Shown here: one piece after another, positions 5,526-37,795 of the stretch
Layout: every line of letters begins with the position of its first letter
Position numbering within the stretch: the first letter of the stretch is position 1
DNA from: a virus
Strand: one strand, 5' to 3'
IMG/VR virus record: IMGVR_UViG_3300046517_001636
Location: 1 to 38,679 of that record
DNA length: 38,679 nt
Notes under the pieces: generated by a model
Told to the model about the DNA's origin: nothing
What the model saw: only the letters and a program-made list of their open reading frames with translations
The model's database searches: none
Translations under genes and position numbers: made by a program

Positions 5526-5816
5526 TCAAGGTTTCTTGCCGAGCTCGCGCGTCATGATATCGACGACCTTGTCCAGCCGATCCTTGTTCGCCTGCGTCTC
5601 TTTCTCGGTGACAGTCAGGCGATTGTTGATCTCCGCGAGGTGCGGCGAGCCACGCACTTCGAGAATGTTCACCCGCGCCTCCAGCTCGACCATATAGGCA
5701 GTAATCGAGAGCACGGCCGCGCCGATGGCAACGCCTTGCGCCACCAGGAAGTAGACCAGAGCCTGGTTATCGTGGAACCACGATTTGACGGAAGTCATCA
5801 TGGATCTCGGTTCCAT
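5526..5816 (-). CDS. Small membrane/coiled-coil protein, candidate holin
   Basis: 96 aa. One hydrophobic segment at about 20-42 (LVYFLVAQGVAIGAAVLSIT) is followed by a charged coiled coil (LEARVNILE, then EINNRLTVTEKETQANKDRL). It is directly upstream of the endolysin on the same strand, the usual place of a holin. A single-pass helix plus coiled coil fits some class III holins or lysis regulators. Function is inferred from position. Starts at residue 1 or residue 6/7 are both possible. Confidence 0.7.
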   Translation of the reverse strand: MEPRSMMTSVKSWFHDNQALVYFLVAQGVAIGAAVLSITAYMVELEARVNILEVRGSPHLAEINNRLTVTEKETQANKDRLDKVVDIMTRELGKKP

Positions 5817-6020: not shown

Positions 6021-6048
6021 AAAGCCGGGAGAGCCCAACTCTCCCGGC
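6021..6048 (-). terminator. Strong hairpin after the RHH gene, likely terminator
   Basis: Perfect 10-bp stem GCCGGGAGAG/CTCTCCCGGC with a 5-nt loop (6024-6048). On the minus strand it is followed by TTTGAG, a poor T-tract. It lies 50 nt past the RHH stop. I see no gene in the rest of 5817-6097, only a weaker AACCGG/CCGGTT inverted repeat near 5920-5940. Confidence 0.6.
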
Positions 6049-6097: not shown

Positions 6098-6313
6098 CTA
6101 GTCCTTTCTGGGCCGCCGGCATCGCCCGGACAGCGCCTGCACAAGCAGCCGCCGGATCGCCTCGGGGCGGGAGGGGGCCACCGGTTGCCAAGCCCGCCAG
6201 CCGTCCAGTTTTGCCAGCAAATCGGCCTGCAGCCGTGTCATGACCGGCGTCCCTATCTCTTTGGGACGACGACGTTTCTCATATTTCGTGATTTCACGAC
6301 TTGACGTGGCCAT
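6098..6313 (-). CDS. Ribbon-helix-helix DNA-binding regulator
   Basis: 71 aa. Residues 21-62 match the ribbon-helix-helix pattern: a beta strand (TPVMTRLQ), helix A (ADLLAKLDGWRAWQ) and helix B (SRPEAIRRLLVQALSG). The N-terminus is basic (EKRRRPKE). These proteins bind palindromes as dimers and often repress themselves. Two related palindromes lie at its start (6286-6299 and 6317-6332), the second only 3 nt before the ATG where a ribosome site would be. It diverges from the recombination operon, which it probably controls. The start is not certain because no clear Shine-Dalgarno is seen. Confidence 0.8.
   Translation of the reverse strand: MATSSREITKYEKRRRPKEIGTPVMTRLQADLLAKLDGWRAWQPVAPSRPEAIRRLLVQALSGRCRRPRKD
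6286..6299. promoter_or_regulatory. Operator-like palindrome 1
   Basis: TCGTGA-TT-TCACGA, a perfect inverted repeat inside the first codons of the RHH gene. It shares the TCGTG/CACGA half-sites with the palindrome at 6317-6332, so both may bind the same dimeric regulator. Confidence 0.55.
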
Positions 6314-6316
6314 GTG

Positions 6317-6332
6317 TTCGTGGTACCACGAA
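6317..6332. promoter_or_regulatory. Operator-like palindrome 2
   Basis: TTCGTGGTACCACGAA, a perfect 16-bp palindrome 3 nt upstream of the RHH start and about 70 nt upstream of the rightward recombination operon. It is a likely autoregulatory operator for the RHH dimer or tetramer; binding is inferred. Confidence 0.65.
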
Positions 6333-6338
6333 ACAGTC

Positions 6339-6373
6339 GGGTCGGCAAGGTGCTTGTAACACCCCGCCGACCC
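6339..6373 (+). promoter_or_regulatory. Leader stem-loop of the recombination operon
   Basis: The arms GGGTCGGC (6339-6346) and GCCGACCC (6366-6373) enclose a second stem GGTG/CACC with a 7-nt loop. It ends 16 nt before the GGAGG ribosome site at 6390-6394 of the next gene, so in the transcript it would form in the 5' leader. It could be an attenuator, a stability element or a protein site. Confidence 0.5.
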
Positions 6374-6400
6374 TAACCCGAGAGCCGATGGAGGTTACCC

Positions 6401-6799
6401 ATGGCACCCCAGGCTATCCCTGGCCTTACTACGATTCCGCCCGCCCCGTCAGTCGGGATGCCCGCCCGTCCCCAGCTTCAGCCGATCGAGATCGCCCATG
6501 CCGCGATGCTCGCCGGGCTCGCCCGGCTCGTCGTCCCGGTCATTCCCGCGGACAACGAGCCGGTGCATTTCGACGCCCTGGGCCAGCACATGCTGGACGT
6601 CGCCGAGGTCGTCGACGACTACATGACCGCGATCGGCGACCACGTGGCCGAGAATGCCACGACCAAGATCGACCTGAGCCTGTTCGCGGCCCCGCTGCTC
6701 GCGACCATCGAAGGCAATGCATTTTTCGAGATCGAGAACGCGGCCGCGGCGCTGCGCGAGGAGATCCGCGATCATTACGCGCCGAGGAGGTTCGCCTGA
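6401..6799 (+). CDS. Hypothetical protein of the recombination operon
   Basis: 132 aa, start fixed by GGAGG 6 nt before the ATG. A Pro-rich head (1-28) is followed by a mostly helical acidic body (HFDALGQHMLDVAEVVDDYM, then AAAALREEIRDHYAPRRFA). There are no motifs I recognise. The stop overlaps the exonuclease start (TGATG), so it is translationally coupled to it and may be a small partner of the recombination proteins. Confidence 0.75.
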   Translation: MAPQAIPGLTTIPPAPSVGMPARPQLQPIEIAHAAMLAGLARLVVPVIPADNEPVHFDALGQHMLDVAEVVDDYMTAIGDHVAENATTKIDLSLFAAPLLATIEGNAFFEIENAAAALREEIRDHYAPRRFA

Positions 6800-7593
6800 T
6801 GCTGAGCCCCCTCCAGCTCGCGGCCCGCGAGGGCTGCCTGACCGCCTCGTTTCTCCCTAAACTCATGATCTGGAACGAGTCGGAAATCCTGCGCGAATGG
6901 CAGCGCCTCGTCGGCGATCCGGCCTGGGAGCCGGAAGACCTCGACGACAAATGGGCGGTGCAATTCGGCTCGTGGATCGAGCCGTTCGCACTCGATTGGC
7001 ACGAACGCAAAACCGGCCGCGCGCTCTCGCACCGCGGCGACGTGGTGCACCATCCCGAGCGGCCGTACTTTTGTTGCACGCTCGATGCGTTCCGCGCCGA
7101 CGACGCCACCGTGATCGACTGCAAGGCGCCGGGACCGTGGCGCAAGCTCGACGAGGTCGAGGCCTATTACACGCCACAGCTCATCGGCCAGCGGGCCTGC
7201 CTGGGAGCGGACCGGGCCGCGCTCTTGATCGTGCACGGCGGGCAGGAGCCGGTCGAGCATGCGGTCGAATGGGAAGCCGATTACGAACGCGCGCTGTGGG
7301 AGCGGGTCGACAAATTCTGGCATTGCGTCGAGACGCTAACCGAGCCGGTAGCACAAGCGCCGGTCACTCCACCGGTCAAGCCCGTAAAGACCTACGACAT
7401 GACCGGCGACAACCTCTGGGCGTCGGAGGCGGTCACGTGGCTCGACAACCGCGTTGCCGCCCGCAAGGCAGCGGCCGCCGAAAAGGATCTCAAGGGCCTC
7501 GTCCCGCTCGACGCCGTGCGCTGCCACGGCCACGGCATCGAAATCAGGCGCGACCGCGCCGGGCGCCTCTCACTCAAGGAACAACGAGCATGA
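6799..7593 (+). CDS. YqaJ-type viral recombinase / lambda-exonuclease-like nuclease
   Basis: 264 aa from MLSPLQLAAREGCLTAS, with GAGGAGG 9 nt upstream. It resembles the YqaJ family (PD-D/ExK nucleases related to lambda exonuclease), which resect double-stranded ends to feed a single-strand annealing protein. Visible signatures are GSWIEPFALDWHERKTGR (the conserved G-x3-E helix), CTLDAF with the active-site Asp, and the VIDCKAPG strand corresponding to D-x-K. The tail (after about 200) is unconserved. Stop and next start overlap (ATGA), pairing it with the annealing protein. The frame stays open far upstream, but that extension has no start support. Confidence 0.85.
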   Translation: MLSPLQLAAREGCLTASFLPKLMIWNESEILREWQRLVGDPAWEPEDLDDKWAVQFGSWIEPFALDWHERKTGRALSHRGDVVHHPERPYFCCTLDAFRADDATVIDCKAPGPWRKLDEVEAYYTPQLIGQRACLGADRAALLIVHGGQEPVEHAVEWEADYERALWERVDKFWHCVETLTEPVAQAPVTPPVKPVKTYDMTGDNLWASEAVTWLDNRVAARKAAAAEKDLKGLVPLDAVRCHGHGIEIRRDRAGRLSLKEQRA

Positions 7594-8399
7594 AAACGGT
7601 CATCACAACCGGCGCGCCGGACAGCGGCCGCGAGATCATCGAGGCGGTCATCACCAAGGGCAATCTGGCGCAACTCACGCCGCAGGAGCGCACGCGCTTC
7701 TATGTGGAAGTCTGCAAAAGCGTCGGCCTCAATGCGCTGACCAAGCCGTTCGAGTTCATCGAGCTGAACGGCAAGCTCACGCTTTACGCCTTGCGCAGCT
7801 GCACCGAGCAACTGCGGACCATCCACGGCGTTTCGGTCGACGAGATGAGCGAGAGCGAGCGTGACGGGGTGTTCATCGTCACGACCAAAGTGAGAAACAA
7901 GCACGGCCGCACCGATGTCGCCAAGGGTGCCGTCAGCATTGCCAATCTCAAAGGCGACGCGCTCGCCAATGCCATGATGAAGGCCGAGACAAAAAGCAAG
8001 CGCCGCGCAACACTTTCACTGTGCGGCCTGGGTTTCCTGGACGAAAGCGAGGCCGAAACGATCCCGGCTGCGGCCGTCCGCATCGATCCTGCGCCGTCCC
8101 CGCCGGCGGTCACCATCAAGGCGGCGGGGGTCGAGCCGCCGCACCATCCGAAGACCGGCGAAACCAGCCCGCACGCCATCGCAGCACCCAAGGCCGACAC
8201 CCAATGGCGGCGATACGTGCAATGGGGTAGCAGCTACATCGCGGCCATCGGCTCGGCCAAGACGGCCGGCGAAATCGACCAGTGGCAAAAGCTCAACGAC
8301 CCCACGCTGGCCGATATCAAGGCAAACGCGGCGAAAATCCATACCCGGATCGAGGCGAACGTCGCAGCCGCGCGCAAGCGGCTTGCAGCATCGGATTAA
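7590..8399 (+). CDS. Phage single-strand annealing protein (RecT-like)
   Basis: 269 aa. The N-terminal 150 residues match a phage recombinase group seen next to YqaJ nucleases: FYVEVCKSVGLNALTKPFEF, then NGKLTLYALRSCTEQLR and the helix KAETKSKRRATLSLCGLGFL. Such proteins coat and anneal single-stranded DNA during phage recombination and replication. The middle (about 150-200) is a Pro/Ala linker, and the C-terminal 70 residues are helical and may recruit host SSB or the nuclease. Its start overlaps the exonuclease stop by 4 nt. The exact superfamily (RecT, Erf or Rad52) cannot be settled by eye. Confidence 0.78.
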   Translation: MKTVITTGAPDSGREIIEAVITKGNLAQLTPQERTRFYVEVCKSVGLNALTKPFEFIELNGKLTLYALRSCTEQLRTIHGVSVDEMSESERDGVFIVTTKVRNKHGRTDVAKGAVSIANLKGDALANAMMKAETKSKRRATLSLCGLGFLDESEAETIPAAAVRIDPAPSPPAVTIKAAGVEPPHHPKTGETSPHAIAAPKADTQWRRYVQWGSSYIAAIGSAKTAGEIDQWQKLNDPTLADIKANAAKIHTRIEANVAAARKRLAASD

Positions 8400-37596: not shown

Positions 37597-37795
37597 TGTC
37601 CCGTCCCGATTTCGCTCCCCTGCAGGGTATGGATTCCTGCGTGGGCGTCGGGACAGCATTTGTCCCGGCTTTTTTTGTTGTGTTTGCGGTGGTTAGTCGA
37701 TTTCGGGACAATCGGGACAAATGGCATTGTCCCGTGTGGCGAAATTGTGAATTCAACTGGTTGTCGATTTGCTTTCGGGACACCTACCTGTCCCG
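37597..37795. repeat. Array of eight CGGGACA / TGTCCCG heptamers
   Basis: CGGGACA starts at 37649, 37704, 37713 and 37776. Its inverse TGTCCCG starts at 37597, 37661, 37728 and 37789. Six of them form three inverted pairs (37649-37667, 37713-37734, 37776-37795) whose centres are about 62-66 bp apart. All lie in the non-coding stretch 37469-37808 between the ATPase gene and the NusG-like gene. It looks like a multi-operator control region. Confidence 0.65.
37647..37676 (+). terminator. Intrinsic-terminator-like hairpin, plus strand
   Basis: GTCGGGACA/TGTCCCGGC forms a 9-bp stem (one G-T pair) with a 5-nt loop, followed by seven T (37670-37676). It points rightward although both neighbouring genes read leftward. 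The stem coincides with one heptamer pair, so it may be an operator rather than a terminator. Confidence 0.5.

Follow-up and report, generated by a model that had tools for sequence, protein, structure and literature searches.

An RHH repressor and a predicted antisense RNA in a putative phage immunity switch with the design of P22 immI

For the pairing of an RHH repressor with an antisense RNA, the textbook example has so far been the immI region of phage P22. In phage lambda, the repressor cI is made from a leaderless mRNA (PRM) divergent from the early promoter PR, and the operators overlap both promoters. The antisense RNA c4, which belongs to the immI system of phages P1 and P7, is transcribed from the strand that also encodes the operon it targets. 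P22 immI itself contains RHH genes (mnt and arc), and divergent overlapping promoters with operators; its antisense RNA, sar, is 70 nt long and has its promoter in the first codons of ant (PMC2629481, PMC13397905).

Here, a phage DNA of 38,679 nucleotides (IMG/VR record IMGVR_UViG_3300046517_001636), which we refer to as the window, was analysed. It contains a control region of ~150 bases between a leftward RHH gene and a rightward operon. Based on sequence comparison, P22 immI appears to be the closest known system, the likeness being one of design, with no sequence homology shown. Both have RHH repression, overlapping divergent promoters with operators, and a two-hairpin antisense RNA (predicted in the window) over the ribosome site of its target, with a promoter in the first codons of that target. 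P22 sar folded with a z-score of -5.3 for the antisense and -2.2 for the sense strand and forms two hairpins, like the window RNA. However, P22 immI has two RHH genes and the window one, the window RNA ends beside an operator, its target is a 132-aa protein ahead of an exonuclease instead of ant, and the named relatives come, unlike P22, mostly from alphaproteobacterial hosts. No antirepressor could be recognised in the window operon using Pfam, PHROG and NCBIfam, and a search of P22 with our RNA model R2 gave its best match in sar at E=0.36, which does not establish RNA homology; comparison with Mnt and Arc did not establish homology of the proteins either. With lambda, the locus would share a leaderless repressor mRNA divergent from the early promoter and operators overlapping both, but it differs in the RHH instead of HTH fold, in having two operators and in the added antisense RNA over the early mRNA start. 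Like c4, the window RNA would be a small RNA controlling an early phage operon; c4, however, lies on the strand of its target operon, and the window RNA has no Rfam match. The features of the region are the following.

6098-6313, minus strand: RHH repressor gene (71 aa; phrog_4738 transcriptional repressor, E=2e-7), predicted leaderless mRNA
6285-6300, no strand: operator O2 (palindrome 6286-6299, TCGTGATTTCACGA), within RHH codons 5-9
6301-6306, plus strand: predicted PR -35 (TTGACG) of the rightward operon; TTGAC retained in 44 of 56 relatives
6317-6332, no strand: operator O1 (TTCGTGGTACCACGAA), adjoining the RHH ATG (6313) upstream and overlapping both -10 elements
6320-6325, minus strand: predicted PL -10 (TACCAC), on the opposite strand of O1, with +1 on the RHH ATG
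6324-6329, plus strand: predicted PR -10 (TACCAC), inside O1, with a 17-bp spacing read from the sequence
6327-6415, minus strand: predicted antisense RNA, 5'-AGCC...SL2'...GGUUA...SL1'...UUU (from MFE, strand comparison and a match to model R2, whose training set includes the window)
6339-6373, minus strand: SL1', 3' stem-loop of the antisense RNA, terminator-like (from compensatory changes and strand asymmetry)
6343-6348, minus strand: predicted PL -35 (TTGCCG) for RHH, in the hairpin arm, with AAG in the arm
6375-6415, minus strand: SL2', 5' stem-loop of the antisense RNA, in which AGCC pairs with GGUU
6390-6394, plus strand: ORF1 ribosome-binding site GGAGG (from the sequence), predicted antisense RNA target
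6401-6799, plus strand: ORF1 (132 aa), first gene of the rightward operon, without family match
6427-6428, minus strand: TA within the extended -10 predicted for the antisense RNA promoter, in ORF1 codons 9-10
6799-7593, plus strand: YqaJ/RecE-like exonuclease (Pfam YqaJ, 8.6e-6; phrog_434, 7.6e-24)
7590-8399, plus strand: 269-aa protein, candidate annealing protein by position only

The window RHH protein matched phrog_4738 only and had no Pfam match of its own; among 14 relatives tested, 12 matched phrog_4738 and 7 matched Pfam RHH_1. An AF2 monomer model placed helices at 30-42 and 49-64 with low confidence (pLDDT 71), and a Foldseek search with this model gave no fold match. A PDB sequence search yielded nothing useful, the best match being NikR (E=0.04). 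The protein has a tail with an AT-hook-like KRRRP, and in the relatives the N-terminal tail carries an AT-hook-like RGRP motif. Directly downstream of the gene, a 10-bp inverted repeat at 6024-6048 (GCCGGGAGAG-CCCAA-CTCTCCCGGC) is probably the RHH terminator.

A sequence-only reading of the region had pointed out two palindromes, one inside the start of the RHH gene and one just upstream of its ATG, with half-sites in common. Both are present (O2 and O1) and share the half-sites TCGTG/CACGA; exact TCGTG-N4-CACGA occurs 3 times in the window, whereas a shuffled window has 0.07 on average. With the RHH protein as query, ~90 loci were obtained from viral contigs and bacterial genomes, and in ~60 of 84 distinct loci, which are diverged relatives, the layout of O1 and O2 was retained. 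In these relatives O1 lies directly before the RHH start codon and O2 in RHH codons 3-9. The distance between the operator centres was 32 bp in 33-35 loci, 35 bp in 10-12 and 29 bp in 8-9, against a flat spread in shuffled controls. The operator sequence itself varies widely among phages (TTTCTGATAACAGAAA, TTTATGGCGCTATAAA, GGGATATCC and others). T/A tracts were seen on the outward flanks of the operators.

The third exact palindrome, which the earlier reading did not mention, is found in a different gene, at 5770-5783. As a general operator it was rejected, extra copies across the relatives being at chance level (2 observed, 2.04 expected); it is possibly a clade-specific operator. It lies in the first codons of a 96-aa ORF that precedes the endolysin, in a stretch with ~98% identity to two relatives (L002 and L003) and ~90% to a third (L004). 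All three contain one additional base near the start of this ORF (~5800-5805 in the window), so translation probably begins at the ATG pair that follows directly. Elsewhere in the window, three inverted repeats CGGGACA...TGTCCCG lie within 150 bases (37649-37667, 37713-37734 and 37776-37795), a possible separate operator or iteron set.

If the RHH protein recognises these palindromes, repressor and operator would be expected to vary together. Across 52 distinct pairs, repressors that were more alike in the five residues of the beta-strand also had more similar operators (Mantel r=0.35, p=2e-4, the p-values being approximate since the relatives have common ancestry), against r=0.02 for the RHH helices. 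The strongest strand residue was the second (M of VMTRL in the window; r=0.49), the L-Q at the end of the strand gave r=0.28, and the first and third residues showed no covariation with the operator in these pairs. At the second position, G goes with GATAAC/GTTATC operators, N with GGCGCC/GGCACC, H with GGTAC, M or L with GATATC/GGTACC and T with GACGTT. A column a few residues ahead of the strand gave 0.53. O2 encodes the tail, so the covariation seen there (r=0.40) was set aside; as O2 does not encode the strand, the covariation of the strand is independent of the coding overlap. In the sequences compared, this covariation suggests that alternating beta-strand residues read the DNA, which is the pattern that RHH recognition predicts. 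It forms strong indirect evidence that the RHH protein binds both O1 and O2. Together, the layout kept in ~60 relatives and the covariation argue for the earlier proposal that the protein acts through both palindromes on its own gene and on the divergent operon.

The operators coincide with predicted divergent promoters. The TTGAC of PR sits inside RHH codons and its -10 inside O1, with an expected start at ~6336. On the other strand, the arm AAG matching the PL -35 was present in 82 of 85 hairpins beside RHH against 2 of 14 hairpins without RHH, and we read the conserved AAG of the hairpin as the putative PL -35. The distance from the PL -10 to the RHH start was 6 in 31 and 7 in 9 of 56 relatives, and the RHH mRNA is predicted to be leaderless. 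This would explain why the normal ribosome site is missing before RHH, as the earlier reading had noticed: only 1 of 66 relatives has one, against 68 of 69 for ORF1.

That reading also contained a two-stem hairpin in the leader of the rightward mRNA. The hairpin does exist at 6339-6373, but the pairing supports the opposite strand. Compensatory changes were found in 9 of 9 pairs of its helices, and double-change covariation amounted to 102 cells against 31.8 after shuffling. On the rightward strand the mispairs of the outer helix were A-C in 28 cases and G-U in 2, so that the pairs are intact only in a leftward RNA. Between the ORF1 GCT codon and O1, all 97 relatives compared had the more stable fold on the antisense strand, with means of -41.1 kcal/mol for antisense and -27.9 kcal/mol for sense and a background difference of 0.13. 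In the window the antisense strand folded with an MFE of -51.6 (z -6.1), the sense strand with -33.6 (z -2.3). The hairpin as a sense leader was rejected on this strand asymmetry, and the supposed leader stem-loop is better read as the 3' hairpin (SL1') of a predicted antisense RNA.

This RNA of ~80-90 nt would run from 6415, within ORF1 codon 5, to ~6327 on the minus strand, spanning the ribosome site and start codon of ORF1. In the relatives the antisense strand folds into 5'-AGCC..GGUU- (SL2') followed by SL1', and pairing in the RNA accounts for the conserved GCT codon and CTAACC. The evidence for SL2' consists of per-sequence folds, a swap test and the AGCC/GGUU changes: the partner of AGCC is mostly GGUU or GGUC and that of AGCU variants AGUU or GGUU, while C4 of AGCC is never opposite A (p=2e-4) and its C-G pair is swapped to U-A or U-G. 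RNAalifold on the full antisense RNA recovered SL1' alone, because SL2' aligns poorly. Termination at SL1' is uncertain, since the U-tract is weak in the window (GACUGUUUCG). A general role of the hairpin as a strong terminator was not established, loci without RHH having no clear U-tract.

A promoter for this RNA is predicted in the first codons of ORF1. In 80 RHH loci these contain GCT (98%), 11 bases and TA (83%), and on the leftward strand GCT-N11-TA would be an extended -10 (GTGnTA) ~12 bases ahead of AGCC; the window has TAGTA where TGnTA is expected. The element appears to be conserved at the DNA level, because the bodies of ORF1 differ, some are tiny and in some the TA is out of frame. 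In 25 loci recruited by an RNA model that excludes the promoter, 23 had the TA and 13 had TGnTA, against backgrounds of 8.8% and 1.1%, a sample that is largely but not wholly independent, a few loci being the same as or similar to earlier ones.

ORF1 had no match in Pfam, PHROG or NCBIfam. Many ORF1 proteins (L011, L026, L031, L062 and others) have an N-terminal Tat-like SRRxFL with a hydrophobic stretch, and ORF1 bodies are exchanged behind a constant leader (L016 compared with L017). Behind ORF1, the exonuclease expected from the earlier reading was supported by its Pfam and PHROG matches. The annealing protein was not, the 269-aa product lacking a convincing match in Pfam, PHROG or NCBIfam. 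Both genes were seen in the clade of the window only, and relatives carry antirepressors or other genes: in a cluster of 19, the two members tested were ANT antirepressors with Bro-N or pRha, and further relatives have integrase or head genes nearby. The control region thus appears to be constant, with the genes behind it swapped.

Taken together, it is likely that the region is a two-layer phage immunity switch working like P22 immI, with RHH and its operators as one layer and an antisense RNA over ORF1 as the other. In the first layer, RHH would bind O1 and O2, overlapping the divergent promoters, and thereby silence the rightward operon (PR) and autoregulate its own leaderless mRNA (PL). 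In the second, the separate leftward promoter in ORF1 would give the two-hairpin RNA, which would pair with the 5' end of the PR mRNA, block the ribosome site and start codon of ORF1 and damp its leaky expression. The conservation of sites and promoters, the repressor-operator covariation and the structure and strand of the RNA were all obtained by computation; from these we infer that RHH binds its operators and that the antisense RNA is transcribed, ends at SL1' and represses translation, as well as the role of ORF1.

The leftward promoter in ORF1 could also be a second RHH promoter, like PRE of lambda, with a transcript that reads through SL1' into RHH and hairpins that give an mRNA for repressor establishment its structured leader or attenuator. 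The weak U-tract fits this. So does the position of RHH: 15 of the 25 model-recruited loci have the gene, and in most of these it follows downstream on the strand of the RNA. We nevertheless consider it improbable: RHH is without a ribosome site (1 of 66), so that a long-leader mRNA would be poorly translated, ~14 loci retain the RNA without an RHH gene, and in P22, sar is made as a short RNA of its own with a terminator.

It is far less probable that the hairpin acts as a 5' structure of the rightward mRNA affecting its stability or translation. Its location at the predicted PR start and its co-varying helices would suit such a role, but the A-C mispairs on the sense strand (28 against 2 G-U) and its lower stability in 97 of 97 relatives do not, and antisense pairing already explains the conservation of the GCT codon and CTAACC. 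There is marginally less to be said still for RHH autoregulation as the only function, with the RNA a by-product of overlapping promoter and coding constraints. The PL -35 does fix the AAG of the hairpin arm, but the covariation is far above shuffles, and where RHH is missing, the loci still have the RNA, the ATGGCT start and, for the most part, the promoter of the RNA. Their keeping it points to the RNA of the preferred two-layer switch as an independent module.

The RNA is single-copy per RHH locus, except in L025, in which two copies lie ~350 bases apart in one phage (5562-5993). With model R2 it was found in 43 of 299 sampled genomes of the phylum of Sphingomonas faeni, 35 of 199 of the order of Bradyrhizobium manausense and 8 of 99 of the Brevundimonas family; model R1 gave 36 of 149 genomes of the family of S. 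faeni, weak matches included. The cultured Komagataeibacter phage phiKX1 (L142:2897-3183) contains the antisense RNA and an RHH gene, the latter left unannotated in its record. Rfam 15 at gathering score returned only tRNA for 11 loci, with no family match to the antisense RNA, and a single chance-level match for the window region at E<=5. A literature search found no description of the present system.

It is likely that the RNA (5'-AGCC, SL2', GGUUA, SL1') represents an uncatalogued, widespread phage family and that the early-gene switches of alphaproteobacterial phages have it as their constant component. Its partner would be either an RHH protein whose operators and beta-strand have co-diversified into dozens of specificities, or no RHH at all, and the likeness to P22 immI would be one of convergence. 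We predict a second, far more widespread version of the P22 immI design, with an RNA that Rfam does not contain. For work on the RHH recognition code, the ~50 pairs of repressor and operator are a data set provided by nature, from which candidate orthogonal repressors could also be drawn. The antisense RNA may give access to the control of lysogeny in the prophages of Sphingomonas and Bradyrhizobium and in related prophages.
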